Shown: piece after piece, positions 38,227-58,104 of the stretch | How the letters are laid out: each line of letters starts with the position of its first letter | Numbering within the stretch: position 1 is the first letter of the stretch | DNA from: Bifidobacteriaceae bacterium | Lineage (GTDB): Bacteria > Actinomycetota > Actinomycetes > Actinomycetales > WQXJ01 | Reading direction: 5' to 3' | Assembly (NCBI GenBank): GCA_031281585.1 | Contig: JAITFE010000143.1 | Span: forward strand, 1-64,000 | Length of the DNA stretch: 64,000 nucleotides | Position numbers and translations under genes: made by a program | Notes under the pieces: generated by a model | What the model was told of the DNA's origin: nothing | The model's input: only the letters and a program-made list of their open reading frames with translations | The model's database searches: none

Positions 38227-39369
38227 TCACATCCTTCCAAATGGACTATTCAGTCCGGCAGCACCCTGCGGAACGCGAGTGGTGCGGCCGAGGAGGCGGG
38301 CGAACTCTTCGGGCGAGCGGGCCGTTTCCAGTCCCTCCTCGAAGGTGATGTCGCCTTGGCGGACCAGGTCCGCCAGCGACTGGTCGAGGGTGTGCATGCC
38401 CTCGTCTTTGCCCGAGTGCAGGGCAGAGTAGATCTGGTGCAGTTTGTTCTCGCGGATCATGGCCCGGATCGCCGGAGTCGCGCGCAAGAGTTCGGTGGCC
38501 ACCACCCGCCCGCGGCCGTCGGCGCGGCGGCACAGCGTCTGCGACAGCACACCTTGGATGGTGATGGCCAACTGGGCGCGAATCTGATCCTGCTGGAACG
38601 AGTCGAACTGGTCGACCATCCGGTTGATCGATTGGGCCACACCCTGGGTGTGCAGCGTGGCGAACACCAGGTGGCCGGTCTCAGCAGCACGCAGCGCGAT
38701 CTCCATGGTCTCCTTGTCCCGCATCTCGCCCACCAGGATGATGTCGGGGTCTTGCCTCAGAGCGTGCTTCAAGGCCTCGGAGAAGGAGAGCGTGTCCACC
38801 CCCACTTCGCGCTGCGCCACCAGGCAGCGGTTGGAGGTGTGTTGGAACTCGATCGGGTCCTCGATCGTCAAAATGTGACCCGAACGGGTGCGGTTGGCCA
38901 GGTCGATGATGGCTGCCAGGGTGGTGGACTTGCCAGAGCCGGTCGGCCCGCAAACCAGTACCAAGCCGCGCGGCAGGCCGGAGAAGGTCTTGACCACACC
39001 AGGGATGCGCAGTTCTTCCAGGGGAAGGATTTTGTCCGGGATGACCCGGAAAGCGGCCGAGATGGAACCGCGGTCCCAGAACAGGTTGCAACGGAACATG
39101 CGCCCTGAGGGCACCTGGTAGGAGTAGTCCAGCTCAAGATCGTGTTCGAACCGCTCTTGCTGGTTCCGGTTGATCATCCCCATCAACTGCTCGTAAAGTG
39201 CGTCCTCACCCGGGGCCGTGTAGCCCGGCAGCGGTGTGAGGTTGCCAGACTGGCGGATGACGGGCGGCAACAGCGCCGTCAGGTGCAAGTCGGAGGCACC
39301 CAAGGCGGCTGCCTCTTCAAGCGCTTGAACCAGGTCCAGTCCCGTTACGGCGGGATACGCTTCAGTCAT
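38227..39369 (-). CDS. pilT: Type IV pilus retraction ATPase PilT
   Basis: Hexameric motor that disassembles the pilus and powers retraction. The 380 residues contain Walker A GPTGSGKST at about 142-150, the Asp box TIEDPIEF, Walker B DPDIILVGEMRD and the His box GHLVFATLHTQ. The PilT-type C-terminal region is present (LLRATPAIRAMIRENKLHQI, similar to the AIRNLIRE motif needed for retraction). Three bases separate it from pilB. A retraction motor implies dynamic pili (twitching, DNA uptake or adhesion). Confidence 0.95.
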   Translation of the reverse strand: MTEAYPAVTGLDLVQALEEAAALGASDLHLTALLPPVIRQSGNLTPLPGYTAPGEDALYEQLMGMINRNQQERFEHDLELDYSYQVPSGRMFRCNLFWDRGSISAAFRVIPDKILPLEELRIPGVVKTFSGLPRGLVLVCGPTGSGKSTTLAAIIDLANRTRSGHILTIEDPIEFQHTSNRCLVAQREVGVDTLSFSEALKHALRQDPDIILVGEMRDKETMEIALRAAETGHLVFATLHTQGVAQSINRMVDQFDSFQQDQIRAQLAITIQGVLSQTLCRRADGRGRVVATELLRATPAIRAMIRENKLHQIYSALHSGKDEGMHTLDQSLADLVRQGDITFEEGLETARSPEEFARLLGRTTRVPQGAAGLNSPFGRM

Positions 39370-39372
39370 CGC

Positions 39373-41049
39373 TCATGCCACCACCCTCAGTAGTTCCTCC
39401 ACAGAAGTCATGCCTTTGGCCACTTTGGCCCAACCGTCTTGTCGCAGCGAAATCATGCCTTGTTGGGCCGCCAATTCGTTGAGTTCTCGGGTGGACTTGC
39501 GCAGCGCGGTCATGTGTTCCAATTCTTTGGACATGTTCATGATCTCGTGGACCGCCATGCGGCCCTTGTAGCCCGTGTTGGCGCACGCCGAGCAACCAGC
39601 TGGCCGGTAAAGCTGGGTTGGCGGCGGCTCCTTGAAAACCCAGTCCTCCGTGAGCACCTTCCGTTCCGCCTCCGTCACGGCGAAGGGCTGACGGCACCGT
39701 TCGCACAGCCGACGAGCCAGGCGCTGGGCCACCACGCAGTCCAGAGCCGAAGCCACCAAGAACGGCTCAATGCCCATCTCAGTCAACCGTGTGACCGCCG
39801 AAGGGGCGTCATTGGTGTGGAGAGTGGACAGCACCAAGTGGCCGGTCAGTGCGGCCTCGACGGCGATCTTCGCGGTCTCACCGTCACGGATTTCCCCCAC
39901 GAGCACCACATCCGGATCGGCCCGCAAGATCGAGCGCAACGCCGAGGCAAAAGTCAGACCGGCCTTCGGGTTGACTTGGATCTGGTTGATGCCGGACATC
40001 CTGTATTCGACTGGGTCCTCAATCGTGATGATGTTGACCTCCGGACGGGAGATCTCTCGAATGGCGGCGTACAGGGTGGTTGACTTGCCGGAACCCGTCG
40101 GGCCGGTGGCGAGAATCATGCCGTAGGGCTTGGTATACGAGGCCTTGAACTTGTTGAACGAATCATCTGAAAACGACAGCTTGCGCAAATCGACTTCAAC
40201 GGCCGAAGTGTTCAGAATACGCATGACGACTTTCTCGCCCCAGACAGTCGGCAACGTTGCGACGCGAAGGTCCACGTTGCCGCCGTCGACCTCGATCGAA
40301 ATACGGCCGTCTTGGGGCTTGCGCCGCTCGGCGATGTCGATGTTCGACATGATCTTGATGCGGGAAATGACTTGCGATTGGATCGACTTGGGGGCGTTCT
40401 GCATTTCATGAAGAACGCCGTCGATCCGGTAGCGAACTCTCAGGTCGTGCTCCTCCGGTTCCAGGTGGATGTCCGAGCAGCCGTCGTGAATCGCTTGGGA
40501 AATCAGCAGATGCACCCACCGGACGACAGGGGAATCCTCCGCGACGACTTCGGTCACCGAGACGAGGTCTCTTTGCTCCTCGCGCGCGACCGAGTCGATG
40601 GTCTGCCCGATCGAGTCGATCTCCGAATCTGAACGGACCCACCGCTTGATGGCCCGCTCCAGGGCGCTGCGCTGCGCGACCACCGGTGCGACAGCGGAGC
40701 CAAGATAAGACCGCACGTCGTCAAGCGCGACAATATTGCCCGGCTCAGCCATGGCCAGCAGCACCGTGTCGCCCTCGCGGGCCACTGGCAAGAGCAAGTG
40801 GCGGCGGCAAATCGCCGCGGGGACCGAGACGGCCACACGGGCGTCAACCGGATAAACGTCAATGTCGATAAAGCGCAGCCCCGCCGCCTCGGCGAGCACC
40901 GGGATGAGGTCCTCTTCCGTCAGCACGCCGGATGAGACCAGCGCCTGCCCCAGGGTCACACCCTCCAAGCTCTGTTGACGAACTGCCTGGTCAAGCTGGT
41001 CCTTGGAGACCAAGCCCCGGGACAGCAGGGTTTGCTCTAGTGCGCTCAT
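39373..41049 (-). CDS. pilB: Type IV pilus extension ATPase PilB
   Basis: Motor for pilus assembly, 558 residues. An N-terminal GspE/MshEN-like domain (about 1-150; the start SALEQTLLSRGLVSKDQL is typical) is followed by the ATPase core with Walker A GPTGSGKST, IEDPVEYRM, Walker B DPDVVLVGEIRD and GHLVLSTLHTND. A four-cysteine zinc element follows (CERC and CSAC). MshEN-type N-termini can bind cyclic di-GMP; whether this one does is open. Its ATG overlaps the stop of the PAS gene (ATGA), tying pilB translation to the sensor module. Confidence 0.96.
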   Translation of the reverse strand: MSALEQTLLSRGLVSKDQLDQAVRQQSLEGVTLGQALVSSGVLTEEDLIPVLAEAAGLRFIDIDVYPVDARVAVSVPAAICRRHLLLPVAREGDTVLLAMAEPGNIVALDDVRSYLGSAVAPVVAQRSALERAIKRWVRSDSEIDSIGQTIDSVAREEQRDLVSVTEVVAEDSPVVRWVHLLISQAIHDGCSDIHLEPEEHDLRVRYRIDGVLHEMQNAPKSIQSQVISRIKIMSNIDIAERRKPQDGRISIEVDGGNVDLRVATLPTVWGEKVVMRILNTSAVEVDLRKLSFSDDSFNKFKASYTKPYGMILATGPTGSGKSTTLYAAIREISRPEVNIITIEDPVEYRMSGINQIQVNPKAGLTFASALRSILRADPDVVLVGEIRDGETAKIAVEAALTGHLVLSTLHTNDAPSAVTRLTEMGIEPFLVASALDCVVAQRLARRLCERCRQPFAVTEAERKVLTEDWVFKEPPPTQLYRPAGCSACANTGYKGRMAVHEIMNMSKELEHMTALRKSTRELNELAAQQGMISLRQDGWAKVAKGMTSVEELLRVVA

Positions 41050-42467
41050 CTGACACCCCTTGGCATGACCAGGCCCATCGAATTGAAGACGGCCTGAGTG
41101 TGGTCGTAGTTGTCGCTGATCAAGTGCCGGGCGGTCGCGTTGATGCGGCCCAGGATCTCCTCCAGGGGGGCCCGGTCAAACGGCCGGGCCTCATCCACGC
41201 AGGCCTTGGCGAGGGAGCGCAACGAACTGAGCTCCTCGTGGGACTTGTGGAGGCGCTCGTCAATCGGCCCGACCAACGGCCCAAGCTGGGCCGACACGCC
41301 GTACTTGGGCACTTGGATGCGCCAAGCGGACAGGAACTTTTGGAACTGGCCCAGGCTGGCGCCGGCGGATTCGACGTGGCGGCCCACGTCGGTCAAGACC
41401 TGCTGGGCGCCTTCCAGGCCCGACGAAACCGCCTCCACGTCATCGGCCAACGCGTAGCACAGCAGCGGCACGTACAGGAAACCTTCGGGCGGCGCGAAAC
41501 CGTCCAGGTTCTCCAGGGCGAAGTTGATGACCATGTCGTTGTGCAACTGGGCCAGGGCGATCCGGAAGCGCAACTCCATCACGCCCAGCCGCACCTGTGA
41601 GAGCCGCTCCGGAAGCGGGGTCACCACATGCTCGGCGCCAGCCCCGACCTGGGTCATGGCGTTGGCGGTCGAGACCAGGATCGGCGCGTGCCCTGCCACC
41701 CGCTGGGAGGCGTCCAAAGCGACTTGGGTGACTTGCGCCAAAGTCGCCACCGTCCCGCCAAGCTGTTGCGATCCGCCCTGCAGCGCCTCAGCCAGGCGTT
41801 GCAGCGAATCCAAGCGGCCAAGCAGTTCGCCGATCAACTCGTCCATCGCGACCGCGTTGTTGAGAATGTCGGCGATGTCGCCGTGCGCCTCGGGACGGTA
41901 GGTCCGCCGGGCGGACAACGACACCCGCGTCTGGGTTTCGGCCGGCAAAGCGGTGTACATGAACTCGTCATAGGACGGGAAGCCCGCGTCCGCCAGCATT
42001 CCCGCCAAAGCGACCAGACCCGCCGTGGCCGTCTGCGACCGGTTGGCGCCGTTCCGCTTGGCCTCCTCCTCGATCGGCAGAGCCTGGCCGTACAGCGAGA
42101 GCGCCGCGTTCCAAAGCGGCTCGAAGCGGGGGGAGGACCGAACAGACAAGAACCCGCTGCCCATAGGCGTGACCGTCGCAAACACCTGGTAGTCGAAACC
42201 GTCCTTGGCCAGGTTCTTGACGTATGCGGCGAACGGTTTGCCGCCCAGCAACGTGTCCCACATCAGCTTGAAGGCGCCACCCGGCATCAACGGGTTGCGG
42301 ATTAAGTTGTGCGGTGCTCCCATCAGTTCGTTTCGCGGGAAGGCCGAGAGCCGGGCGAACACCGAGTTGGCCGCCGTGATGACGCCCTTTCGGTCGGTGC
42401 AGGAGAAGAACAACTCGTCAACTCCAACACGCCGTTCTTGCCCGATCCGGGCTTTGCGATCAAGCAT
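41046..42467 (-). CDS. PAS-domain sensor protein coupled to pilB
   Basis: A 473-residue protein with a PAS domain at ~16-125 (DELFFSCTDRKGVITAANSV, ELMGAPHNLIRNPLMPGGAF, YVKNLAKDGFDYQVFATVTP), similar to the sensing domain of Aer. A long, mainly helical part follows (LHNDMVINFALENLDGF, FLSAWRIQVPKYGVSAQLGP). No transmembrane segment and no clear chemoreceptor signalling tip are seen. The ATG overlaps the GTPase gene by eight bases and its stop overlaps pilB. A likely role is to bring a redox, light or metabolite signal to the GTPase module or directly to PilB. Its paralogue is at 27679-29112. Confidence 0.82.
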   Translation of the reverse strand: MLDRKARIGQERRVGVDELFFSCTDRKGVITAANSVFARLSAFPRNELMGAPHNLIRNPLMPGGAFKLMWDTLLGGKPFAAYVKNLAKDGFDYQVFATVTPMGSGFLSVRSSPRFEPLWNAALSLYGQALPIEEEAKRNGANRSQTATAGLVALAGMLADAGFPSYDEFMYTALPAETQTRVSLSARRTYRPEAHGDIADILNNAVAMDELIGELLGRLDSLQRLAEALQGGSQQLGGTVATLAQVTQVALDASQRVAGHAPILVSTANAMTQVGAGAEHVVTPLPERLSQVRLGVMELRFRIALAQLHNDMVINFALENLDGFAPPEGFLYVPLLCYALADDVEAVSSGLEGAQQVLTDVGRHVESAGASLGQFQKFLSAWRIQVPKYGVSAQLGPLVGPIDERLHKSHEELSSLRSLAKACVDEARPFDRAPLEEILGRINATARHLISDNYDHTQAVFNSMGLVMPRGVR

Positions 42468-43065
42468 TGCGCAACCTATCCATTGCCACGCGCACCACTG
42501 CGACCAGCGCCTGCTTCGCGGCTTCGCGGGAACGCGCATCCGAATACATGACCGGGATATCGGGGCCCACGGCCAACGCGTCGCGCACATCCTCGAGCGT
42601 GTGACGGGCAATCCCGTCGAAGCAGTTGACCACCACGACGAATGGGATCCCGCGGGATTCGAAGTAGTCCACGGCCGTGAAGCCCTGGTCCAACCGGTCG
42701 GTGTCCACCAGCACGACCGCGCCGATGGCGCCGCGGACCAAGTCATCCCACATGAAGAGGAAGCGCTCCTGGCCCGGCGTGCCGAACAGATACAGCCAAA
42801 GGGAATCGCCCAGCGCGATGCGGCCAAAGTCCATGGCCACCGTGGTGGTTTCCTTCTGGGCCGCCCGCCGTCCCGCGTCATCCACTCCCAGGGAGTGTTC
42901 CGTCATGTCGGCTTCGGTGTTCAACGGCTCAATATCCGAAACCGCGCCAATGAACGTGGTCTTGCCAACGGCGAAGCCGCCGGCCACCACGATTTTGACG
43001 ACTGTCGGAGGCTTGGGCCGCGTCACGGTAGCGCCTTGGCTCGGCTCATAGTTTGGATATTGCAT
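42460..43065 (-). CDS. Small GTPase of the conservon type (CvnD-like)
   Basis: A 201-residue Ras-like GTPase of the actinobacterial Cvn 'ATP/GTP-binding' family. Walker A GGFAVGKTT is at 29-37, a Thr-rich switch I region (KETTTVAMDFGRI) follows, the switch II FGTPGQERFLFMW has Gln, and the base-recognition element is NCFDG, typical of this family instead of NKxD. It overlaps the DUF742 gene by 20 bases and the PAS gene by eight. In Streptomyces such GTPases act with the Roadblock and kinase-like partners of the conservon. Here the neighbours are pilus motors. Confidence 0.92.
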   Translation of the reverse strand: MQYPNYEPSQGATVTRPKPPTVVKIVVAGGFAVGKTTFIGAVSDIEPLNTEADMTEHSLGVDDAGRRAAQKETTTVAMDFGRIALGDSLWLYLFGTPGQERFLFMWDDLVRGAIGAVVLVDTDRLDQGFTAVDYFESRGIPFVVVVNCFDGIARHTLEDVRDALAVGPDIPVMYSDARSREAAKQALVAVVRVAMDRLRNA

Positions 43066-43708
43066 TTAGAACACTCTCCAGTAGCTCCAGGGTTTGTTCG
43101 CGTGAGACGGGCCCGCCCGAACCCACGCCGCCGCCGCCGCCCGCCATGGTGTCATGCACCACCAGGACGCCAGCCTCAGCTAGATCGGAAACAAGCACCT
43201 TGACAACACCCACCGGCAGTTTCAGGTGCGCGGAAACTTCGGCCACGGTCAAGTACGTGGTGGCGATCTGCCGCACGATGGCGGCTTCCTCGGGCGACAG
43301 GGTTTTGCCCGTGTCCGCCAGCCACTGTTCGTTGGCGACTTCGAGAATTGACTCAAGGCGGGTGCTGGTGCTGCCCTTGGTCCGCCCGCCGGTCACCACG
43401 AAGGGCCTGACCGAGGCGACGTCTTCGACGGACAGCGACACCTTCGCCTCGTCTTCGATCCGGCGCCGGGGCCGCTTGCGCGGCGAGGCGGGGACCGACG
43501 GGCGCGGGGCACGCGCCTCGGCCGGGTGGCTGGCCGCCGGCGCGGATCGCGGGTGGACGGGGGCCGTCCGGGCCACGGGGGCGCCGGCCGGTGGGATGTC
43601 GGTCTTGGCTGGGGAAGCGAGCGATTCGAACGTTCGCTCAGCCAAGCCGCTCGAGTCGGCGTCCGTCCGTCTGGGGACGGGGCGCCGCTGCGCGGGAGAT
43701 GGCATCAT
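43046..43708 (-). CDS. DUF742 protein (CvnC-like)
   Basis: About 220 residues. The C-terminal ~115 are DUF742 (VRPFVVTGGRTKGSTSTRLE, TVAEVSAHLKLPVGVVKVLV with winged-helix character, DLAEAGVLVVHD). The N-terminal ~100 are Pro/Ala/Arg-rich and ought to be unstructured. In conservons this protein is the third component, of unclear biochemical role. The start is one of two adjacent ATG codons overlapping the cvnB-like stop. Frames further upstream lie within the Roadblock gene. Confidence 0.88.
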   Translation of the reverse strand: MMPSPAQRRPVPRRTDADSSGLAERTFESLASPAKTDIPPAGAPVARTAPVHPRSAPAASHPAEARAPRPSVPASPRKRPRRRIEDEAKVSLSVEDVASVRPFVVTGGRTKGSTSTRLESILEVANEQWLADTGKTLSPEEAAIVRQIATTYLTVAEVSAHLKLPVGVVKVLVSDLAEAGVLVVHDTMAGGGGGVGSGGPVSREQTLELLESVLNAISKL

Positions 43709-44160
43709 CGGCCACCCCGCACGGTGCCGGTTGTCGGCAGGGCGTCCCGCATTTCGGCGATTAGCTGCGGCGTCAAGAAGGACTCGGCGCGGCCCACCAG
43801 AGTCGCCATCTCGTAGCCAACCAGGCCCACGTCGGAATCCGGTTCGCACAGCACCGCCAACACCGATCCATAGGAGATCGACATCAGCATGACGAAGCCT
43901 TCCTCGTATTCGATGACCGATTGGCGGTCCCGACCTATGCCAAGTTCGCGTCCCGCGCCGCGGGCCAACGACGACATGCCGGAGCAGATCGCCGCCATAA
44001 TGTCGCCGACGGTCCTGTCGGCGCCGCCGGACATGGTCATCAGCAAGCCGTCGGCGCTGACCACAACGCCGAGCCGGGCTCCCGGGGTCGAGCGCACAAA
44101 CGAGTCAAGGAGCCAGGTCAGATCCTGCCTATTCTCCCCGGTCTGGTAGTTGGTCGTCAT
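43705..44160 (-). CDS. Roadblock/LC7-domain protein (CvnB-like)
   Basis: A 151-residue Roadblock/LC7 protein (LTWLLDSFVRSTPGARLGVV, VSADGLLMTMSGG, IEYEEGFVMLMSISYGSVLA). Proteins of this fold regulate small GTPases, for example MglB with MglA. It is preceded by AAGGAGA and followed without a gap by the DUF742 gene. Within the conservon it is expected to contact the GTPase or the kinase-like protein. Confidence 0.92.
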   Translation of the reverse strand: MTTNYQTGENRQDLTWLLDSFVRSTPGARLGVVVSADGLLMTMSGGADRTVGDIMAAICSGMSSLARGAGRELGIGRDRQSVIEYEEGFVMLMSISYGSVLAVLCEPDSDVGLVGYEMATLVGRAESFLTPQLIAEMRDALPTTGTVRGGR

Positions 44161-46888: not shown

Positions 46889-48829
46889 CTAAGGCCCTTC
46901 GCATAGACCTTCCAAGCACTCCTCAAGGCTGAAGCGCTTCAGCCATTTGCCCGAGGCACTCTTCTGGTTCAGGTCCATGCAGTAGTAGTCGACGCCGTTG
47001 TACTTGTTCTTGGGCAACGTGCCGGTGTCCTTAAACATGACCTGGTCGTCACTGGTCCATTTCGTGTAGCCAGGGGACTTCTGGTCACTGTACTGGCAGT
47101 CCTCGTACTGCGGCTCGCTGAACCAGACCCAGCGTGTGCGGGTCTCATTGAAGAAGCCTGGACGTCCCCAGTTCCCGCCGTGATGTCCCAGCGATCCGTG
47201 CTCGTGCCAGCCGCGGCCCCATTGCTTGCCGTAGGTGTCCCACCAAATCACGAAGCCTTGACCGGTCTGGAAATCCTTGACGTTCCGGGCCACAACGATG
47301 ATGGCGCCCGGATCGGGACTCTTGTAGGAGGAGACGATCTCAAACACCTCTGAGCCTCTGCCTGTGGAACCCTCGATCTTGCTTGGATAGCCTTCATAGC
47401 TTCGCACCGGAGCGCCCCAGCCGTACAGCGTGCCGTCGTCAGCCAAAGCGGTCACGGCGGTGAACGAACAGGAGAACTGCACAATGTTGGGCGGGGTGCC
47501 ATCCCATTGGACAAACCCTGGCGAGCGGTAGCAGTGATCTCTGGCAGCTGTGGTCGTCTCGGCGCAGCGCCGCCCGACGGCTCCCCAGTCATTGACTGTG
47601 CCGTCTTCGATTTTTCCGTCGTTCCGGCCCCATGTCAGCATCCGGCCGGTGGACAAGAGCGCCGCCCCAAAACCGATTCCCGAGTGGACTTGGACGATGT
47701 ATTCGCTGGGGCTGTTCTCCCGGAACCATGGCTCCAACGCCACCGATTTCACCGCGATCTGGCCTTCGCCCTCGGGGTAGTCGTTGTAGTTGACGCCGGG
47801 CCTGCCCGAATACTCGGCTGGGTGGTCGCCTTCCGCGCGCTCCCATGGTGATCCCAGGGTTCCGCTCGCGTTGCCGCCGAAGTACCAAACCTGACCGTTT
47901 TTCAGCATCACCCAATACGTCTGGTAGCCGCCTTCAAGTTGGTCCGGCTGGTTGCCCTCTACCGTCACATCGAAGTCCGCCGGGAACCGCACCTGCACCG
48001 CTCCCCACCTGTTCTTGCCGTCGGTCAGGTCGGTGAGGTCTCCCGTGCCGACGCCTCCGTAGTTGTAGCCGCCCCAGGAGTAAATCAGGCCACTCTTGGT
48101 GACAGCAGCGCCGCTCATTTCCGTACTCGACAGGAGCTCCACAGGATCATTCTGACCCAGCAACGGCTTGCCGCAGTTCTCCTTGATGACGGCCTTGCCC
48201 TTCGCGTCCTTGCCCCAGCAGCTGTCATCCCAAGCCGCGCCGATCCGCAGTCTCTGCGGAGGCCAGGAGGCGCCGGTGGCCTTGCCGTACTTCGCGTTAC
48301 CCGTGTCCGAGTTCCTGACGGCGTTCGAACCACCGGTGCCGTCGCGATTCGCGTATGAACCCCAGCCCCAAACGTAGCCGGCCGTGTCGACGGCGTTGAA
48401 GTTGTAGATGCCTCCGGTCACTTCCTTGATGGCCTTGGAGGGCAAACCCTCGACCGTCGTGGGAGCTCGGTTGTCCGGCTCGCCCCAATCTGTGGACAGG
48501 CAGGACGCGTCGTCGCGCGAGCCTTTGACGCCCAGCGCTCCGCACACGCCCCAACCCCACAGGTACAACTCGCCGTCCAGGATGGTGACGCCCGCCTGCA
48601 GCGTGCGGCGGTCCTTCCGCGACTCACCGGTGACAGCAGTTGTCTTCGGCAGCACGGCCGGCTGGATAACCGGCGTCAACGCCTCCGGTGCCCGTGCGGC
48701 TTGGGCACCGGTTTCGGCGCCGCCGATAGTCGTCACCACCAAGGCACCCACCGCCGTCGTGGTGGCAATCACGGTCCAGATTCTTTGCGCCCGCAGGGCT
48801 CGGCCGGTGCGGACCTTGTTGTTAGCCAT
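46889..48829 (-). CDS. Secreted RCC1-like beta-propeller protein in the pilus operon
   Basis: A 646-residue exported protein with a basic N-terminus and a hydrophobic segment at ~18-40, likely a signal peptide or anchor. It then has at least six repeats with the RCC1 feel (LYLWGWGVCGALG, YVWGWGSYANRDG, IYSWGGYNYGGVGTGD, VWYFGGNASGTLGS, MLTWGRNDGK, LYGWGAPV). Many Cys and aromatic residues follow in the C-terminal ~150 residues (e.g. YEDCQYSD, YYCMDLNQ). The ATG follows GGGAGGGAG and overlaps the pilO-like gene by eight bases, so it belongs to the pilus operon. It may be a pilus-associated adhesin or tip component. I know of no characterised pilus protein of this type. Confidence 0.75.
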   Translation of the reverse strand: MANNKVRTGRALRAQRIWTVIATTTAVGALVVTTIGGAETGAQAARAPEALTPVIQPAVLPKTTAVTGESRKDRRTLQAGVTILDGELYLWGWGVCGALGVKGSRDDASCLSTDWGEPDNRAPTTVEGLPSKAIKEVTGGIYNFNAVDTAGYVWGWGSYANRDGTGGSNAVRNSDTGNAKYGKATGASWPPQRLRIGAAWDDSCWGKDAKGKAVIKENCGKPLLGQNDPVELLSSTEMSGAAVTKSGLIYSWGGYNYGGVGTGDLTDLTDGKNRWGAVQVRFPADFDVTVEGNQPDQLEGGYQTYWVMLKNGQVWYFGGNASGTLGSPWERAEGDHPAEYSGRPGVNYNDYPEGEGQIAVKSVALEPWFRENSPSEYIVQVHSGIGFGAALLSTGRMLTWGRNDGKIEDGTVNDWGAVGRRCAETTTAARDHCYRSPGFVQWDGTPPNIVQFSCSFTAVTALADDGTLYGWGAPVRSYEGYPSKIEGSTGRGSEVFEIVSSYKSPDPGAIIVVARNVKDFQTGQGFVIWWDTYGKQWGRGWHEHGSLGHHGGNWGRPGFFNETRTRWVWFSEPQYEDCQYSDQKSPGYTKWTSDDQVMFKDTGTLPKNKYNGVDYYCMDLNQKSASGKWLKRFSLEECLEGLCEGP

Positions 48830-49496
48830 TGCTCCCTCCCTCAGTCGAAGAGTCGGGTATTTTGTCTGCCGGTACAAGGGCGTAGGTGTACCCAATGATC
48901 GTATACTCGGCGACGTTGGTCAGCCCGTTGGCGTCCGCCGTCTCCGAATCGCCTGTCATCTGCACATCTGTGACCGAAAATAGACGGCCCTCGTCTGCCT
49001 GCAGCATCGCGAGGAACTTCTGCGTCTGTTCCAGCACACCCTCAATCTCAATTGTGAACTTGTATTGGTAGAGGTTTGCCGGGGGTTGGGGCACTACCGG
49101 CGCTTCTTGGCTGTCTGGTCCCTTGGGCAACGGAGCGGCCACGGTTACCGCAACCGGCATGTCGCTCGCCACAGACTTGACCGTGGCCCCCGATTCCTGT
49201 GCGAGGTTCCACAGGTCGTCAGTGAACTCGGCGAGCTCAAGATCGGTTGGGAACTGGCTCCTTTTCGCCTCAAGCTCTGCCTTCTTCTCGTCAAGGTGTT
49301 TAGCGTCTTCGGCCAGCTTGTTGAGTTCGGCCTGTGCCTGCTCGTTTTCAGACTCGGCGTCTTCGGCCTTGGTGATGGCCTCGCTCCGCGCTTCCAACGC
49401 GGGAGCGTAGAGCAGGAAGTACGTGCCCACGGCCAATGCCAGGGCCAGCAGCGCGACTAGCGCCAGTATTGCCGTAGATCGCTGGTTGCCTCTCAT
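48822..49496 (-). CDS. pilO: PilO-like pilus alignment protein
   Basis: A 224-residue bitopic membrane protein with a short cytoplasmic start, a membrane helix (~10-30, ILALVALLALALAVGTYFLL), a coiled coil (~35-80, rich in Glu/Lys/Ala) and a periplasm-facing alpha/beta domain with YKFTIEIEGVLEQTQKFLAM, the ferredoxin-like pattern of PilO. With PilM and PilN it forms the inner-membrane alignment complex. The start ATG overlaps the pilN stop (TGATG). Confidence 0.85.
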   Translation of the reverse strand: MRGNQRSTAILALVALLALALAVGTYFLLYAPALEARSEAITKAEDAESENEQAQAELNKLAEDAKHLDEKKAELEAKRSQFPTDLELAEFTDDLWNLAQESGATVKSVASDMPVAVTVAAPLPKGPDSQEAPVVPQPPANLYQYKFTIEIEGVLEQTQKFLAMLQADEGRLFSVTDVQMTGDSETADANGLTNVAEYTIIGYTYALVPADKIPDSSTEGGSNG

Positions 49497-50260
49497 CAGT
49501 CCGTCTTCCCTTCCTCCGTTGTGGTCCCGGCTCCCTGAGCTTGGGCGGTCAGTAGCCACTCTTGGAAATCCTTCGGGAACAGTTCGTTGCCGACCAAACC
49601 CACCAGGTTGATTTGGGCCGAGCACGTCGCCGTCCAGACCTCGCCTCTCGGAGTCTCTCGCTTGGTGGCGGCGCTGTAGGTGCCGAATTCCAGGCCGGGA
49701 ATAGAGTTGAAACCGCGCACCCAGGCTGACACGCCAGGCATGTCCGGCACATCCAACATGATGGTGGCCGAGCCGATGGCGGCGGGCGCCAAGACATTTC
49801 CTGAACTGCTCATTGTCTTGCCAGCCGACATGCCCTGGAGCGTAATGCTGGAAACGACGGAGCCATCCGGCACGTTGTCGAACATGGCGTAAATCAATTC
49901 GGGCCAACGGATCTCGTATGACACAGCCACCATAAGGGCGTCCCCGGTCGCTTTCAACTCTTCGTTGATCTTGATGACCTCCGCGTACTGCTCCTTCTCC
50001 TCGGCCAAGCGCTGGGCCTCCGATTCGGCTTTGGCGAGCCGCGAGTCAGCGGCGCCTTTCCAGATGCTGACGCCAACATATCCAGCGACCAAGACCAAGA
50101 CGACCAGCGCCAGAGCGACTAGCGCCTTGACCTGAAGGGCCCGCCCGGCTTGGCGGTTGGCCACATAGGCCGGCAGAAGATTGACCGCCGGGACCCGTGG
50201 CCGTGTCGCCATGGCGCTGCCCAAGCCGACGCCGGGCGCGGTGGGTGGGTTCTTGCTCAT
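49496..50260 (-). CDS. pilN: PilN-like pilus alignment protein
   Basis: A 254-residue bitopic protein. The cytoplasmic N-terminus carries VPAVNLLPAYVANRQAGR, matching the INLLP motif by which PilN binds PilM. A membrane helix (~45-66) and a coiled coil (~70-105) follow, then a PilN-type domain (WPELIYAMFDNVPDGSVVSS). The start overlaps pilM (ATGA) and the stop overlaps pilO. Confidence 0.88.
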   Translation of the reverse strand: MSKNPPTAPGVGLGSAMATRPRVPAVNLLPAYVANRQAGRALQVKALVALALVVLVLVAGYVGVSIWKGAADSRLAKAESEAQRLAEEKEQYAEVIKINEELKATGDALMVAVSYEIRWPELIYAMFDNVPDGSVVSSITLQGMSAGKTMSSSGNVLAPAAIGSATIMLDVPDMPGVSAWVRGFNSIPGLEFGTYSAATKRETPRGEVWTATCSAQINLVGLVGNELFPKDFQEWLLTAQAQGAGTTTEEGKTD

Positions 50261-51303
50261 GCCGCCCCTCCCATCGCCAGGCCCACCGCCACGGGTAGCG
50301 ACATCCGCTGTTCAGGCGTCATCGCCTTGGCAGAACGTTCGACCGTGAAGTTCGAGTCCAGAGCCGAGAAGGAAGCCGGCAGCCTGAGCGCCGTTGAAAT
50401 GTACTGGCCCAGTCCGTTCAACATGCCTCCCCGACCCGAGATGACCACGTGCTCGACCGCGTGTCCAGAAGACTGGCTGTAGAAGGAGAACGTCCTGGCA
50501 ACCTGTTCCACCAACGCCTGGCACTTCTCGGCGATCACGGCAAAGGCCCCGTGGGCCTGCTCGTTGCCTTCGCCTGGGTTCATCAAAGCCACTTCAATCT
50601 TCAATCGTTCCGCGTGCGGTTCTGGGATCGCTATGGTCCGCGCGATCTGGTCAGTAATCAGTCTGCCACCTGTCGGCAAAATCCGCATTATCGCGGGCTC
50701 GCCATTTTGGGCCACAACCACTGTTGTCATATCCGCGCCGACGTCCACCAGGCCGACAATGGAGTGTTGGAACTGTCCCCGCGCCAAAGCACGCACCAAA
50801 GCGAAGGCCGCCAGATCGACCCGAACGGGCCGCAGCCCCGCCGCCAAGACGGCGTCCACGTTGTGCTCGATCGTCTCGTTAGGGGCCGCCACCAGCAGGC
50901 CGCTGACCTGGCCCTCCGCCTCTACGAGTGGATAAAAGTCGAGTTGGCATTCATCGACCGGCACCATGATCAGGTCTTGAACCGTGAACGGCAGGGCAAG
51001 ACGGAGTGATGCAAGCGGAGCCGAGGGCAGCGTCGCATCGCGCACCACAACTCTTTGCCCGCCCAGCCCGATGACCACATCTTTGCTCGCGAAACGCTGC
51101 GCGTTCCAAAGGTTCTTGAGGGCGGCGGACACGTCAGCGACCCGAACAACCTCACCGTCCCGGACGGCATCGGGCACCAAATCGACCTCGGCGTAGCGTT
51201 GGATCGCCGCAGAGCCGAGCGGATTGCCGGTATCGAAAGCTAACTCGACGGCCCGCAACTGGGTGTCGCCAATGTCCAGCCCAACGACTTGGGTTCTCGC
51301 CAT
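50257..51303 (-). CDS. pilM: PilM, actin-like pilus protein
   Basis: Cytoplasmic actin-fold protein of 348 residues that binds the PilN tail and links the alignment complex to the motors. The ATP-binding phosphate-1 loop VGLDIGDTQLRAVEL is at the N-terminus, the phosphate-2 segment VGLVDVGADMTTVVV at ~185-200, and the adenosine region VISGRGGMLNGL at ~300. It follows the prepilin peptidase gene by 37 bases. Confidence 0.93.
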   Translation of the reverse strand: MARTQVVGLDIGDTQLRAVELAFDTGNPLGSAAIQRYAEVDLVPDAVRDGEVVRVADVSAALKNLWNAQRFASKDVVIGLGGQRVVVRDATLPSAPLASLRLALPFTVQDLIMVPVDECQLDFYPLVEAEGQVSGLLVAAPNETIEHNVDAVLAAGLRPVRVDLAAFALVRALARGQFQHSIVGLVDVGADMTTVVVAQNGEPAIMRILPTGGRLITDQIARTIAIPEPHAERLKIEVALMNPGEGNEQAHGAFAVIAEKCQALVEQVARTFSFYSQSSGHAVEHVVISGRGGMLNGLGQYISTALRLPASFSALDSNFTVERSAKAMTPEQRMSLPVAVGLAMGGAA

Positions 51304-51340: not shown

Positions 51341-52138
51341 TCAAACCTGCATCAATTGACGATACAGGTCCCACACGGGTCCACCGACCGCGCAGCCCAA
51401 TGCCGCTCCAGCGCACATCCAAGGGCCGAACGGAATAGCGGTGCGCCGCCCTCCGTGAGTCTTGATCATCACGCCAATTCCCCACACCGCGCCAAGCAAG
51501 AACGCGCCGAACGCCCCAACCGCCAGCGGGCCCCAGCCTTGGTAGGCCAAAACCAGGCCGATCAGTCCCGCCAGCTTGACATCGCCCCATCCCATGCCTT
51601 GGGGCTTTACGAAGTGCACAACACCGTAAACCGCCATTAGACCGAGGCCGCCGATCCCAGCCCGGAGCAAGGCCGGCCAATCGCCTGACAGCCAACTGCC
51701 GAAGGCGAGCAGAACCGCCAGCACCGGATAAGACGGCTTCACTATGGCATCAGGGAGCCGCCCAGTTCTAGCGTCGATCGCTGTCAGCGCAACCGCGATC
51801 GCGGCGGCATACAGGTAGGCCGGAACGGCGGCGAATGGCTGAACAAGCAACGCCACCAACGCAAACAGCGCCGCCGTCGAGGCCTCCACCAATGGGTATA
51901 GCTTCGAGATCGGCTCGCCGCACGAACGGCAGCGTCCCCGCAGGATCAGCCAGGACAACAGCGGAATGTTGTCTCTGGCCGTCACCTGTTGACCGCATTT
52001 TGGGCAGGCCGAACGCGGCCACAGGCTGGCCCCCTCTGGCACACGAGTGATGACGACCGTCAAGAAGGAGCCGATGACCAGTCCCAGCAGACCACCCGCG
52101 ACCCCTTTGGCGATTGCGTCGAGCGTTTCAAGGGTCAC
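51341..52138 (-). CDS. pilD: Prepilin peptidase / N-methyltransferase PilD
   Basis: Membrane aspartyl protease (A24 family) that cleaves prepilins after Gly and methylates the new N-terminus. Residues ~45-73 hold the cytosolic zinc cysteines (CPKC, CRSC). The catalytic aspartates are D122 in TAIDARTG and D186 in GMGWGDVKLAG (the GxGD motif). Eight or so hydrophobic segments are present. The GTG start directly follows the TAA of the upstream minor pilin gene. Its substrates are encoded next to it: two major and three minor prepilins. Confidence 0.95.
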   Translation of the reverse strand: MTLETLDAIAKGVAGGLLGLVIGSFLTVVITRVPEGASLWPRSACPKCGQQVTARDNIPLLSWLILRGRCRSCGEPISKLYPLVEASTAALFALVALLVQPFAAVPAYLYAAAIAVALTAIDARTGRLPDAIVKPSYPVLAVLLAFGSWLSGDWPALLRAGIGGLGLMAVYGVVHFVKPQGMGWGDVKLAGLIGLVLAYQGWGPLAVGAFGAFLLGAVWGIGVMIKTHGGRRTAIPFGPWMCAGAALGCAVGGPVWDLYRQLMQV

Positions 52139-54073
52139 TTACGGGGCCTTCTCAACGAACGCGCTGGGAATCGCCTTCTCCTGGTAGGCGATCACCCATG
52201 TGCCGCTCTGCAAGGGCTCAAACAGAAGCGGTCGTTTCTCATTCAGCTTCTCGTTGTACTTGTACTGCTTGGCGTAGCCGTTGAGCGGGGTGGTCGAGGC
52301 CCCCGCAGTCTCTTCCGCCATCACCCCGCGGAAGTTTTGCGCAATCGATCCAACCACGGTGAGCGTGCCGAGATATCCGCCGTATTTCCAGTTCTGCAGA
52401 CGGAAGCTGCCAGTCCCGGCGATGATGGCGGCTTCGATCCGCAAATCGCCTGTCGGCCAGCCCGAGGCGCGCTCTGGTGCCGAAGGCACCTGCCAAATGA
52501 ACTTGTTGGGATCGCCAGGGTATGGGGAGGCGGCGTACTTCTCCAGCACGGGATTGTAGATTTGCACCGATTCGGATGCCATCACACCGATCAAGTCCTC
52601 GGCGTCATTGACAGTGGTGAGGTCCCCCGTGATGACGACTGACGAATCCGCCCACATTGTGATGGTGCCCTTCACTTCCCCTTCCACCCAGAGATTGCCT
52701 TGGTTCGCGTACATGTCCTCCATCTTCATTGCCAACTCGATCTCATAGGTTGAGTTCGCCGCAGGTGCCCACAAGTCGTCGTAGGCCTCGACGTAGCTGC
52801 CCAGCGGCAGCTCCTGTCCGCTTGGACCGCCGATCGCGCCGTGTTCGATTTTCTTTGACAGGTCAGGGTGGGCCGCCGCGTCTAGATCACGCACGTAAAT
52901 CAAACTGCCGTCGGGGATTGGCAACGTGACCCCCGCGTCAAGCTCCGCGGCGGTGCCACACCGACCCGTCGTTGCCGCATCGGGGTTGTCCGTGTACCTG
53001 GACCACACCGTCATTGTGCCGTCGTTCTTGAAGATGATCCTAGTGGGACCGTCGTAAGCGCAACCGCGGTTGGCGATCTCGTCGAGCACAGCCGGATCAG
53101 ACTTGGGCGGAAGTTCGGGCAAGAACTCTCTCTCCGCGATACTGGGAGGCACGTGAAAATCAGCGCTGCCATTGACGCAAGTATTCCAAGTGGATGGCAC
53201 GCTCGCATCGGCTACGCAACGCGTGTCGGATGTGGTGAAGTCGCTCAGGAAATGCGCCCCGTTCGACTTGATCGTGTCATTCGAGTGAACCGGGCCGTCC
53301 AGGTAGTCCCACTCTCTAAAACTCGGCTCCAGGCAATCCCGCGGGTAGCCCTCGTCGGTTCGATCCTGCCTGGCCGGTCTGGTGCCCGCGTCAACCTGGT
53401 ACTTGTAGCCCAGCTCGGCAAGAGTGGTGGCCGACGGGTACCCGGCACCGCACACATTCATGTTGGCGCCACGGGTGGGATAGGCCGTGTAATCTGACGG
53501 GTCAACGAGTTCGTAGTCCGACAGATAGAGGTACTGTTTGGAACTGGCACGCTCGATACGCGCCTTGACCGAACGCACCACGCCCTGGGACCTCCCCGTC
53601 GACAGCACCTCAGCGCTCATCGGAATGGCGCTATAGTCAAGCACAGTGTAGTGGAATTCTTGCGACGCCTGTGCGCTGGAGTCGTCGTACTTGTAGAATC
53701 TCGCGTATTCCTCCGTCCAGCCGCAATCAGTCGCGAAGTGGTCCTGCTCGGCGGATGCTCCCGTGTTCTTTCCACCCACGGCCGGGTTCCTGCAGTAGCC
53801 GGTATCCAGGGTTTTCGTCGCCGCCACTTCGTTCAGGTAATCAGGGTTCTCACGCAAACGGGCGAGCAAGTCGTTCACTCCGGACTGTGCCGCAGCCAGC
53901 GCCAGATCGTTGTCCTGCTCGAAGCGCGACGCCTTCGTCGAGGCCGCCAGATAAGCCAACGAGCCCAACACGATCACGGTCAGGATGGTGAAGGAGGCCA
54001 GCACGGCCACCATGGTGATGCCTGCGTCCCTGCCGCGGCGGTGCCGCGCGCGGCGGGTCAAATAGCTTCTCAT
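52139..54073 (-). CDS. PilX-like minor pilin with a very large ectodomain
   Basis: A 644-residue protein whose N-terminus resembles PilX-type minor pilins: basic residues (TRRARHRRGRDAG), then ITMVAVLASFTILTVIVLGS as the pilin-like helix, with an amide/acidic residue missing at position +5. The ~600-residue exterior is rich in Asp, Tyr and Cys (about eight Cys), with no domain I can name. The ATG at 54073 shares a base with the preceding stop and has GGAAG at a proper distance. An ATG five codons earlier is possible. It is much larger than typical PilX (about 150-200 residues), suggesting a tip-located binding domain. Confidence 0.78.
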   Translation of the reverse strand: MRSYLTRRARHRRGRDAGITMVAVLASFTILTVIVLGSLAYLAASTKASRFEQDNDLALAAAQSGVNDLLARLRENPDYLNEVAATKTLDTGYCRNPAVGGKNTGASAEQDHFATDCGWTEEYARFYKYDDSSAQASQEFHYTVLDYSAIPMSAEVLSTGRSQGVVRSVKARIERASSKQYLYLSDYELVDPSDYTAYPTRGANMNVCGAGYPSATTLAELGYKYQVDAGTRPARQDRTDEGYPRDCLEPSFREWDYLDGPVHSNDTIKSNGAHFLSDFTTSDTRCVADASVPSTWNTCVNGSADFHVPPSIAEREFLPELPPKSDPAVLDEIANRGCAYDGPTRIIFKNDGTMTVWSRYTDNPDAATTGRCGTAAELDAGVTLPIPDGSLIYVRDLDAAAHPDLSKKIEHGAIGGPSGQELPLGSYVEAYDDLWAPAANSTYEIELAMKMEDMYANQGNLWVEGEVKGTITMWADSSVVITGDLTTVNDAEDLIGVMASESVQIYNPVLEKYAASPYPGDPNKFIWQVPSAPERASGWPTGDLRIEAAIIAGTGSFRLQNWKYGGYLGTLTVVGSIAQNFRGVMAEETAGASTTPLNGYAKQYKYNEKLNEKRPLLFEPLQSGTWVIAYQEKAIPSAFVEKAP

Positions 54074-54816
54074 CAGAGTTTCTTCCATTCTTCGACCGTG
54101 AATCGTTTGAAAACTGTCGCCTGAATGCTCTTGTCGCTGCCTTTCCCGCTGTCCGGCCCGATCACCGTGATCATCATTTCGACTGCCTCAATATTGCCGA
54201 TTTCCGAAGCCGAGACGCTGGGCGCGCCTGGCTTGAGCACCCCGCCGTCTTTCACGAAGTAGGTAAAGATGGGGTCCGTGTCCTTGACCCCGCTCGCCAC
54301 CACCAAGTCTTCGAACAAGTTGTTGGGGCAATCGGGGGCACCCTTGGTGCACAAGACCGAGGAGTTGTCAGCCAGGATCTTCGGAGACTGAACGCAGCGA
54401 TGAAGCACCCCTGGATCATCGCCGGGCGAGCCCCAACAAGTCTGGCCCAACACCACCCGCACGGAGCTGACACGCTTGCCCTCGGTGTCTCCAGTGACCG
54501 GCAGAGCCGCTGTGAACTTCATTTCCTGCGGCTCGGCTACGGCGAAGACCGTGTCACCCGCCCCGGCCGACCGGGGCAACGCCGCGTAGCTCAGCGCGTC
54601 GCTCAGCCAGATGCTGGTCTGCCTGATGCCGTCCACGCGCGACTGGCGAATCAGGTTCTTCGCGTCGTGTTTCATCATTGAGATCATGACCATGCCAACC
54701 AGACCCAGCACCATTGTTCCGATCAGGAGCACCGTGAGCAGTTCGGTCAAGGACATGCCCCTGTCGTCACCCGGCCGCCGAAGCCTGGCCGCCAGCCGCA
54801 AGGCCAAGCGCTTCAC
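54073..54816 (-). CDS. Minor prepilin, PilW-like
   Basis: A 247-residue prepilin with a 20-residue basic leader ending in DDRG, followed by MSLTELLTVLLIG with Glu at +5, the signature processed by PilD. The globular part has a Cys pair (QTCWGSP and HRCVQSP, plus CTKGAPDC). The GTG start overlaps the previous gene (GTGA). It is likely part of the minor-pilin priming complex together with its two neighbours. Confidence 0.85.
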   Translation of the reverse strand: MKRLALRLAARLRRPGDDRGMSLTELLTVLLIGTMVLGLVGMVMISMMKHDAKNLIRQSRVDGIRQTSIWLSDALSYAALPRSAGAGDTVFAVAEPQEMKFTAALPVTGDTEGKRVSSVRVVLGQTCWGSPGDDPGVLHRCVQSPKILADNSSVLCTKGAPDCPNNLFEDLVVASGVKDTDPIFTYFVKDGGVLKPGAPSVSASEIGNIEAVEMMITVIGPDSGKGSDKSIQATVFKRFTVEEWKKL

Positions 54817-55996: not shown

Positions 55997-56031
55997 TGGT
56001 ACAGGCGTTTGCAAGGCCGAAACAACCGCTA

Positions 56032-56066
56032 GTGGGCCGTCCGCGTTTGTCTCGCGGACGGCCCAC
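56032..56066 (-). terminator. Terminator between the major pilin and the pilus operon
   Basis: GTGGGCCGTCCGCG and CGCGGACGGCCCAC form a perfect 14-bp stem with a 7-base loop. It stands about 75 bases after the first major pilin gene. Read on the minus strand it is followed by a T-containing stretch. It would limit read-through from the abundant pilin mRNA into the assembly genes. Confidence 0.85.
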
Positions 56067-56141
56067 CACTCGGCTAGGAGCCACAGTGGGTGGTGAGCGG
56101 GGGTTCCCCCGCAGCATCCCCAACGGGCTCTAAGGGTGATC

Positions 56142-56666
56142 TCACGGGCAAGTCGCGGCAGTAATCGCAGTAGCGGTGCTGGCCTCTTGCTCGCCGAACA
56201 GGCCCTTCGTCGCCGTCACCTTATAGCTCTTGACCTTGCCGTTCTTGTTGAACGCGGCGAAGCACCAATCCGTCTTGTCGGCACCAGAAGTCCTCCAGTT
56301 CACTTCCGAGCCGGTCGCGCCTGTGATGGTATCCGCCAGGCCCGGAGGCAGCGGGGTCACCAGCGTGTCCTTGTCCACTGGGTCGCCGGACTTCGCAACG
56401 AGGTGGATTCCTGGATAAGCGGCTGATGCCGGCTCGATTTGGATGTGGGGTGCCGAGTAGTTGCCAGTCCACCAGGCGGCCAGTTCCTTGCCCATCGTCT
56501 CCACGATGGCTTCAGTCTTGGCGTCCTCCGCCTTTGCCCTCTGCGAGAGGAACAGCGGGATGGCGATCGCCGCCAGAATGCCCATGATGATGACAACGAT
56601 CAGCAACTCGACCAGCGAGAAGCCTTCGTCGTTTTCCTTCTTGCTCTGCCAAATCCACTTGGCCAT
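56142..56666 (-). CDS. pilA: Major type IV pilin, copy 1
   Basis: A 174-residue prepilin with a 15-residue leader (ending ENDEG), then FSLVELLIVVIIMGILAAIA with Glu at +5, i.e. a type IVa pilin N-terminus. The head domain has the Cys pair in DWCF and AATCP, probably a C-terminal disulfide loop. The ATG is preceded by GGAAGG. It is followed by its own terminator. From F16 for 34 residues it is identical to the second pilin, after which the two diverge. Confidence 0.95.
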   Translation of the reverse strand: MAKWIWQSKKENDEGFSLVELLIVVIIMGILAAIAIPLFLSQRAKAEDAKTEAIVETMGKELAAWWTGNYSAPHIQIEPASAAYPGIHLVAKSGDPVDKDTLVTPLPPGLADTITGATGSEVNWRTSGADKTDWCFAAFNKNGKVKSYKVTATKGLFGEQEASTATAITAATCP

Positions 56667-57398
56667 TGTCTTGCCTTCCGTTTGTTTGTTTCTGCGGCCT
56701 GACCCAGATGGCGGGGCCCGCCATTGGGGAGACTTTGAGGAGCTGGGTCCTCCCGCCACGCGGATTGCGACCGACTCCGAAGCTTGCGACTGCCACCCGG
56801 CTTTCCCAGCCCGACAGTGCATTTCGTTTTCGACCACTTCCCCGGTTGCGGTGCTGGTTCGATGTTAGGCACCACTGAGCCAACTCAGCAAGTTTGCCAA
56901 TCCGTGCCCCGCCAGTTCCGTAGACAACCAACGAAACGGCTGTTGACCTGCGAAGACGCATCGAAGTGGGGCCGTTCCCCTGGCCCCCCAACAGCCTAAT
57001 CCGGGACAAACGTCCTAGAGTAGCTTTTGTTTATCCCATTAAAACGCTGCTAACCGATCAGGTGGATCCAGCCTCTGGCCTAACCGATTGATCTCAGGCA
57101 ATTGGTGTTTGGCCAGGTCGGGCCGCGTTGTTTCGGCACCCACCACTGGGCGAGGGGCGCCAGCGGGGCCGCCAAAGGTCGCCGCGACGGAAGCGTTGAG
57201 CCATAGCGCCGTTCACTTTGGGCCTAGTTTCGCGCAGTACAACTACGAAAAGCTGCCGCCTTCGGCCAATCAAAGGACTGTGGGGTAACCAGACGTTAAC
57301 AATTCATGTTGCATGAAGCGTTCATTCGGAGAGGAATTCTGGTGCCACACGACGCAAAGGGCTAAGTAGATCTACGCAGATTTGTGACCGGGCTCACA
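56667..57398 (-). other. Long spacer between the two pilin genes
   Basis: No gene can be supported here. The middle part (about 57005-57060 and 57290-57380) is visibly more AT-rich than its surroundings. On the minus strand TACTCT near 57018 with TTTTAA 16 bases upstream is a weak promoter candidate for pilA copy 1, which would leave a leader of about 350 bases. A short inverted repeat TGTGA/TCACA (57384-57398) follows the second pilin gene. The long leader could hold regulatory RNA, but I recognise no riboswitch. Confidence 0.4.
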
Positions 57399-57917
57399 CT
57401 ATGCGCACTTGTTCGCAGCGCTTCCGTCTGTGCCCTGAACGCTGCTCGTGGCGGTGACCCAGAATCCGCCTTCCTTGCCACGCGGGTTGTACGCCCAGAA
57501 ACACCAGTCCTGTCGACTGGTTCCCTTCACCTTCCACATGGTGTTGTCCGTGTTGCCGTTTAGATCGATCGCAACATGGTCGCTGACCGGGGCAATCAAC
57601 GTCGAGTAGAAGTTCGAGGTGGTGATGGTCGACACTCCGTTGGGTAGCAGATGCCAAGTGCGTTCGCCCGCAGTCCACGTGCTGACCAAGAGGACCGTAG
57701 GGGGGTTGGAGTATTCCGTCCAATACGTGGCCAGTTCCCGTCCCACCACCACCACGTCATTGCGGGTCGAGGCGTCCTCCGCCTTCGCCCGCTGTGACAA
57801 GAACAGCGGTATGGCGATCGCCGCCAGGATTCCCATGATGATGACCACAATCAACAGTTCGACCAATGAGAAGCCTCGGTCCCGGCTGGTCCTGGCCCGC
57901 CAAATCTCGTTTGCCAT
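57399..57917 (-). CDS. Major type IV pilin, copy 2
   Basis: A 172-residue prepilin with a 15-residue leader (ending SRDRG) and FSLVELLIVVIIMGILAAIA with Glu at +5, the same as copy 1. The head differs except around DWCFWAYN and the C-terminal Cys (NKCA). The ATG has GGGAGGC in front, and a promoter candidate lies about 190 bases upstream. The pair probably arose by duplication with conservation of the helix and diversification of the exposed part. Confidence 0.93.
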   Translation of the reverse strand: MANEIWRARTSRDRGFSLVELLIVVIIMGILAAIAIPLFLSQRAKAEDASTRNDVVVVGRELATYWTEYSNPPTVLLVSTWTAGERTWHLLPNGVSTITTSNFYSTLIAPVSDHVAIDLNGNTDNTMWKVKGTSRQDWCFWAYNPRGKEGGFWVTATSSVQGTDGSAANKCA

Positions 57918-58104
57918 TGTCCCGCCTCCCGTCCGTTCTTGTCCTGTTCGGCGGAGTTGGAACCCTCCGCCAGTTCGCCTGCATCTTCCACCGCCGACAC
58001 GAGCCAACCCGATGCAATTCGGCGGGACGGGACAAGATGACTTGCTTCGAGAAGACTGGGCCGGAACGTGTTTGGTCAACTCCGCGCCAGCGCTGCTGGT
58101 CCTG

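Follow-up and report, generated by a model that had tools for sequence, protein, structure and literature searches.

A stand-alone, exported RCC1-type propeller in the type IV pilus operon of a Bifidobacteriaceae bacterium, a candidate tip adhesin

A type IV pilus operon of a Bifidobacteriaceae bacterium encodes, immediately after its pilO-like gene, a protein with an export-type N-terminus and a predicted seven-bladed propeller of the RCC1 type. The most likely reading, with a rough probability of 0.6, is that this protein is a stand-alone exported accessory of a type IVa-like pilus, namely an adhesin borne at the tip by the complex of minor pilins; the evidence favors this reading without proving it. 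The gene lies in a window of 64,000 nucleotides (the whole stretch of DNA analyzed here) from a 3.98 Mb draft genome (G000). Among named relatives, the closest to this genome are metagenome-derived assemblies that were deposited as "Bifidobacteriaceae bacterium" and that, from their sample naming, presumably come from termite guts. A stand-alone RCC1 propeller in an actinobacterial pilus operon is new, and an RCC1 propeller in a pilus has already been published in the form of PilX2, which is discussed below.

On the minus strand, the order of features is two pilins, a hairpin, the PilV-like, PilW-like and PilX-like minor pilins, PilD, PilM, PilN, PilO and the propeller, followed by a kinase-like protein, Roadblock, DUF742, GTPase, a conserved protein lacking a Pfam match, PilB, PilT, and PilC (Table 1). 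That the propeller gene forms part of a pilus operon, as a first-pass annotation of this DNA had proposed, is borne out by Pfam matches of pilus neighbors and by the retention of its position in relatives. It should be noted that the names PilV, PilW, and PilX are based on position and prepilin-like N-termini, not on strong family matches. The true start of PilO is probably near 49499, given the membrane-anchored N-terminus (MRGNQ...) and the pilN stop. The hairpin directly follows the pilin gene at 56142..56837 and precedes the operon of minor pilins, an arrangement that would be expected if this pilin were the major one and highly expressed.

Table 1. Features of the pilus operon, in the order of the minus strand (positions are those of the window)
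Feature	Position	Strand	Basis or remark
Pilin, candidate major pilin	57399..58139	minus	PF07963 E 2.5e-8
Pilin, candidate major pilin	56142..56837	minus	PF07963 E 5e-7
Strong terminator-like hairpin, sixteen pairs	56030..56068	minus	between pilin 56142 and PilV-like gene
Weak promoter-like site	55996-55967	minus	after terminator-like hairpin
PilV-like minor pilin, 372 aa	54813..55931	minus	PF07963 E 3.8e-4, 20.3 bits (cut-off 21.2)
PilW-like minor pilin	54073..54816	minus	GMSLTEL prepilin motif; no Pfam match
Large PilX/ComZ-like minor pilin, 649 aa	52139..54088	minus	GITMV, no Glu5; helix in model; ComZ match
PilD prepilin peptidase	51341..52138	minus	PF06750 E 1.8e-32, PF01478 E 8.5e-12
PilM	50257..51303	minus	PF11104 E 1.3e-39
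PilN-like	49496..50260	minus	position and conservation; no Pfam PilN match
PilO-like ORF	48822..49907	minus	PF04350 E 0.04, weak
RCC1-type seven-bladed propeller protein, 646 aa	46889..48829	minus	Pfam, model, sequence; export-type N-terminus about residues 1-47, propeller about residues 72-640
HATPase_c sensor-kinase-like, 859 aa	44231..46810	minus	PF02518 E 1.9e-11; 78 bases past propeller gene
Roadblock/LC7 protein	43705..44160	minus	PF03259 E 2.7e-16
DUF742 protein	43046..43849	minus	PF05331 E 5.8e-23
Small GTPase, ATP_bind_1 family	42460..43065	minus	PF03029 E 1.4e-26
Conserved protein, about 600 residues	41046..42881	minus	no Pfam match; true start inside ORF
PilB extension ATPase	39373..41049	minus	PF00437 and PF05157
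PilT retraction ATPase	38227..39369	minus	PF00437
PilC platform protein	37000..38220	minus	PF00482

The propeller gene had been placed correctly by the first-pass annotation, which named no strand: its ATG, at 48829, is preceded just 5' by GGAGGG, and the overlap with the pilO-like ORF that had been claimed comes to 8 bases. The gap that separates the propeller gene from the kinase-like gene contained no terminator-like site. Among Pfam families, the protein matched the RCC1-like domain PF25390 (E 1e-26, 94.6 bits, below the curated cut-off of 150), RCC1_2 (PF13540; 31.1 bits, above the cut-off of 22), and PF00415 (21.3 bits; cut-off 21.7). A match to PF25390 was also obtained for 19 of 19 aligned relatives. 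The Pfam scan returned no domain besides RCC1, and a search of NCBIfam with the protein returned no match. With 13 WG dipeptides and seven blades, the earlier description of "at least six WGxG-type repeats" is a fair one.

The structure prediction that the first-pass annotation had called for yielded a seven-bladed RCC1 propeller. The AlphaFold2 model, built on a 19-row alignment (the window protein and 18 of 21 loci, with L072, L073, and L074 left out), has a pLDDT of 74.5 and a pTM of 0.81 and displays seven strand triplets, grouped at residues 79-92, 134-157, 230-254, 295-318, 378-401, 449-472, and 517-540, with less distinct fourth strands. The top Foldseek matches of the model were UVR8, HERC2, RPGR, and RCC1, and structural alignment with VIA-align gave a Z of 25.0 for UVR8 (rmsd 3.0 over 344 aligned residues), 20.9 for RCC1 in its complex with Ran, and 19.6 for BLIP-II. 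RCC1 chains were also recovered by profile from sequence alone. A propeller profile comprised 12 rows picked by length; for several relatives, start codons were chosen by hand. The model contains no long N-terminal pilin helix, residues 1-63 being of low confidence. As modeled, the chain is thus not a pilin-propeller fusion of the PilX2 type, and the helix-bearing pilin is a separate gene.

The N-terminus of the window protein carries a charge of +5, followed by a hydrophobic stretch (mean KD 1.79) and by A-x-A sites whose last residues are 44 and 47; beyond it, neither a further hydrophobic segment nor an LPxTG motif was found. All 14 of the propeller rows examined share an N-terminus of net positive charge with a hydrophobic stretch and, after it, A-x-A sites, and LPxTG was seen in none of them, two rows being uninformative on this point as they end short of the C-terminus. 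Judged by composition, this N-terminus supports the earlier claim that the protein is exported. The signal is likely to be cleaved. It is also possible that it serves as an uncleaved membrane anchor, since the hydrophobicity of the stretch is modest and the A-x-A sites follow only at some distance. In the absence of a cell-wall anchor from the complete rows, something else must hold the propeller.

The link between the propeller and the pilus is strong. A total of 14 of the 99 relatives searched gave a propeller match, including 13 from the home family (the window genome among them) and a weak, broken match in G079. PilB is encoded by 14 of the 18 home-family genomes, and the propeller is present in 13 of the 14 genomes with PilB and in none of the four without it. 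When the 22 home-family contigs with a propeller match were considered (a weak match on G015:C216 was left out of this tally), a pil or pilin gene was present on 16 and the kinase gene alone on one (G006:C279); no pilus gene was seen in the inspected parts of G001:C403, G001:C464, G007:C172, and G009:C24, these contigs being short or cut at the propeller gene. The propeller gene follows pilO on nine home-family contigs (G000:C143, which is that of the window, G004:C19, G001:C491, G009:C309, G002:C27, G006:C57, G015:C68, G011:C120, and G003:C104) and in two Cellulomonas (L067 and L068). The order in L042 is pilV, pilW, pilX, pilN, pilO, propeller. Smaller second clusters place the propeller beside minor pilins, in the orders propeller-pilV-pilW-pilX (L039), pilV-pilW-pilX-propeller (L049), and pilX-propeller (L048).

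Sequence divergence points in the same direction. In G004, G001, G002, and G003, respectively, the best tblastn segments of the propeller are 70, 58, 38, and 39% identical to the window protein, and those of the three minor pilins are 63-66, 45-51, 40-42, and 41-43% identical. By the same measure, the GTPase is 99% identical in G004 and 96% in G002, and across home-genus genomes Roadblock and GTPase, where present, are 96-100% identical. The propeller therefore diverges like the minor pilins and unlike the GTPase, indicating that it travels and changes with the minor pilins.

Outside the home family, the distribution is narrow. PilM is encoded by 89 of the 248 genomes of the order, and a profile search of 80 pilM loci (that of G017 and 79 from beyond the home family) detected no RCC1 ORF; 73 of these loci are usable, as they continue for 6 kb or more beyond pilM and so cover the region of the propeller slot. 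The same profile found distant RCC1 paralogues, which served as positive controls, in L052, L053, L072, L074, L198, and L200, and missed a weak 57-residue match with a stop in L022. The search for this gene beside pilO in other actinobacteria that had been suggested in the first pass was consequently positive for the home family and two Cellulomonas and negative for the 73 usable loci of the order, so that the pilus works without a propeller elsewhere in the order. Further, G017, a home-family genome with PilB, encodes the kinase directly after pilO with no propeller, indicating that the propeller is dispensable. A class-wide profile search recovered the window genome alone (1 of 296), this being a weak search with few candidates scored per genome in its first pass. 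Within one Cellulomonas genus, 5 of 81 genomes carry a propeller relative, two in a pilus locus and three, with relatives that are more distant, in SipW-type loci. The presence of the propeller in the pilus operon is thus lineage-restricted and not general for actinobacterial pili. In several of 12 representative loci, the place after pilO is taken by a protein that has a single hydrophobic segment and a length of about 200-340 residues, located before a gene that, from its sequence, we take to be aroC; in a locus from another family (L115:12438-16556), it is occupied by a 1372-residue exported protein. The position after pilO may be an exchangeable slot.

These observations bear on an alternative in which the propeller, anchored in the membrane or loosely bound outside it by PilO, would be an assembly factor that aids the start of the filament or its passage through the wall. 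The direct overlap with pilO in a conserved order, the potential of the N-terminus to act as an uncleaved anchor, and the occupation of the same slot in several other families by a short protein with one hydrophobic segment are all compatible with such a function. However, the empty usable loci of the order and the loss in G017 show that the propeller is no core assembly part, its divergence follows that of the minor pilins, and it also occurs beside minor pilins where pilO is lacking; an assembly function is accordingly considered unlikely.

Relatives of the propeller were also found in a second context. Small exported proteins of a similar kind lie near the propeller relatives of three Cellulomonas, of Leucobacter sp. 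7(1), and of a paralogue on contig C130 of the window genome. One of the small exported proteins of C130 matches a SipW-type signal model just below the cut-off, and a SipW-like signal peptidase is present in the Leucobacter and C130 loci. Exported RCC1 relatives adjoin SipW-type signal proteins in L053:8551-12103, L072:7147-12287, and L198-L200, with SipW-like peptidases in L053 and L072. The SipW-type loci of propeller-clade relatives contain no pilus genes. In a tree of 18 rows (two very distant paralogues and one near-duplicate row were excluded), the Leucobacter and Cellulomonas rows of SipW context group with the two Cellulomonas pilus rows with 99/99 support. One propeller stock appears to be in use in two types of surface structure; as the tree is rooted by midpoint alone, it gives no direction between the pilus and SipW contexts.

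The occurrence of clade relatives in non-pilus loci, together with an export signal and no wall anchor, would also suit a binding protein that is released freely, whether lectin-like or inhibitory as BLIP-II is, and that is only co-expressed with pili. BLIP-II of Streptomyces is a secreted RCC1-type protein, and it is among the fold matches of the model. Free secretion nevertheless makes it hard to explain why the propeller co-occurs with PilB as described above and why it is repeatedly adjacent to minor pilins, and it is regarded as improbable.

The operon also contains a GTPase module. The set of kinase, Roadblock, DUF742, and GTPase (42460-46810) lies inside the pilus operon before pilB and is also found in a pilus operon of Cellulomonas, which suggests GTPase control of the pilus; MglA/MglB of Myxococcus exert comparable control. 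The conserved protein between GTPase and pilB occupies this position in the home genus and in Cellulomonas and is divergent in genus g3. The gene order in g3 (L045 and L046) is pilO, propeller, kinase, the divergent form of that protein, and pilB, with no Roadblock, DUF742, or GTPase in between; g3 is the only case of a true loss of the GTPase module beside the propeller. In Cellulomonas IC4_254, the propeller adjoins pilO, and the module, kinase included, sits before pilB some 13 kb away, at the opposite end of the operon. An RCC1 fold encoded in one operon with a small GTPase about 4 kb downstream could call to mind a nucleotide-exchange factor acting as RCC1 does on Ran, but this function is rejected as very improbable given the export-type N-terminus (by composition) in every row examined, the separation of propeller and GTPase in g3 and IC4_254, and the near-constancy of the GTPase (96-99%) where the propeller drops to 38-70% identity. 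The preference of the first-pass annotation for an adhesin over GTPase exchange is therefore supported, g3 having kept the propeller without the module.

The large PilX-like pilin is proposed as the partner of the propeller. Its N-terminus is prepilin-like (GITMV) and lacks Glu5. In related systems, minor pilins lacking this residue occur at the tip of the filament. The model of this pilin (pLDDT 66.7) comprises a 59-residue N-terminal helix (residues 22-80) and a large beta-rich part, and its only PDB matches at E <0.001 were three chains of ComZ from Thermus thermophilus (6qvi). The best of these has an E of 7.7e-7 but a TM-score, by target, of 0.25, so that the resemblance is significant yet loose, and the model is a modest one. 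ComZ of Thermus has a tip and DNA role. The PilX_N profile matched weakly in three of nine members of the PilX-like family and gave no match for the window's own member. The pilin is present in 12 of the 18 home-family genomes; the L054 frame has a stop near its end, and the part before the stop was used.

Under the tip adhesin reading, the following sequence of events can be envisaged. The propeller would be translated with the pilus genes, presumably from a single transcript, as the pilO overlap and the lack of a terminator before the next gene suggest. It would then be exported by Sec through its N-terminal signal, a step supported by the sequence, and would fold outside the cell and bind to the tip complex of minor pilins, above all to the large PilX/ComZ-like pilin; gene neighborhood and matching divergence argue for this step. 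Finally, as PilB and PilT lengthen and shorten the filament, a variable face of the propeller might, by analogy with PilX2 and PilY1, attach to a partner or to some surface. Flagellates, other bacteria, and gut fibre are guesses at the ligand.

Saccharibacteria are epibionts whose known hosts are actinobacteria. In one of them, Nanosynbacter lyticus TM7x, the minor pilin PilX2 bears a C-terminal seven-bladed RCC1 propeller; according to the accessible text of that report, deletion of pilX2 lowered the bound hosts from about 10.6% to 4.6% with thin pili still present, and the authors proposed an adhesin and likened it to PilY1 (PMC12206443). Compared by description only, the two share a seven-bladed RCC1-type propeller of a type IV pilus with a proposed adhesin role, but in PilX2 the propeller is fused to a pilin and belongs to another phylum, whereas here the propeller is exported as a protein of its own and the large pilin is encoded by another gene nearby. 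Exported RCC1 proteins are, moreover, described in the available text on Bifidobacterium asteroides (PMC3447821), and together with the Saccharibacteria pilus (PMC12206443) they indicate that "unexpected", the word used in the first-pass annotation, was an overstatement. Like BLIP-II, the B. asteroides proteins represent secreted actinobacterial RCC1 repeats; as far as that text describes them, they differ in having an LPxTG-type signal and a Listeria-Bacteroides repeat (PMC3447821), while the present protein has neither LPxTG nor a non-RCC1 domain and is tied to pili. In Streptococcus sanguinis, the modular minor pilins PilB and PilC likewise bring adhesion-type domains to the type IV pili of a monoderm, although, in the parts of the review consulted, these domains are fused to pilins and have other folds (von Willebrand A, lectin-like; PMC6916266).

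PilY1/PilC (PF05567) resembles the present protein in being a non-pilin exported propeller encoded with minor pilins, for which a comparable role is proposed here, and differs in that the present propeller is, by sequence, of the RCC1 type and not of the PilY1 type. The propeller gave no match to PF05567 at E 0.1, and its 19 relatives gave none at E 0.01; membership in the PilY1 family was therefore rejected. A search of genomes with PF05567 found nothing in 16 of 16, but the control was likewise without a match, and the absence of PilY1 does not follow. The 50 rows of VIA-align included no PilY1 structure and have no bearing on a difference in fold.

Among the open-access papers that literature searches listed, none describes a type IV pilus operon of an actinobacterium with an RCC1 protein as a gene of its own, most subscription papers and all bioRxiv preprints lying outside this literature. 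The accessible text of a paper on termite Bifidobacteriaceae (PMC11707648) contains neither RCC1 nor such a pilus, and that of another mentions an annotated RTX protein with RCC1 repeats with no relation to pili (PMC5941755). In the portion seen of a review, adhesion by type IV pili of single-membrane bacteria is called poorly understood, and the actinobacterial pili described as studied are of the Flp/Tad type (PMC6916266). A propeller that is no pilin itself but is conserved, exported, and linked to minor pilins provides a concrete and deletable candidate for the sticky part, and the propeller-bearing relatives in Cellulomonas are likely cultivable. If the propellers of Saccharibacteria and actinobacteria share a job, RCC1 propellers would be a recurring pilus head, fused or separate depending on the phylum. 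A broader scenario, put forward tentatively and as somewhat doubtful, is that the type IV pili of actinobacteria without a recognized PilY1 possess a tip module split into two parts, an RCC1 propeller on its own and a large ComZ/PilX-like pilin that lacks Glu5, as the counterpart of the fused PilX2 of Saccharibacteria, and that propellers of this one stock have passed, as interchangeable adhesive heads, between such pili and surface-fibre loci of the SipW type.

The window genome encodes a third RCC1 gene (L052:8644-10737; 697 aa). By eye, its product has no export-type N-terminus, and the gene adjoins one whose product is large, exported, and, also by eye, RTX-like in its C-terminal region.
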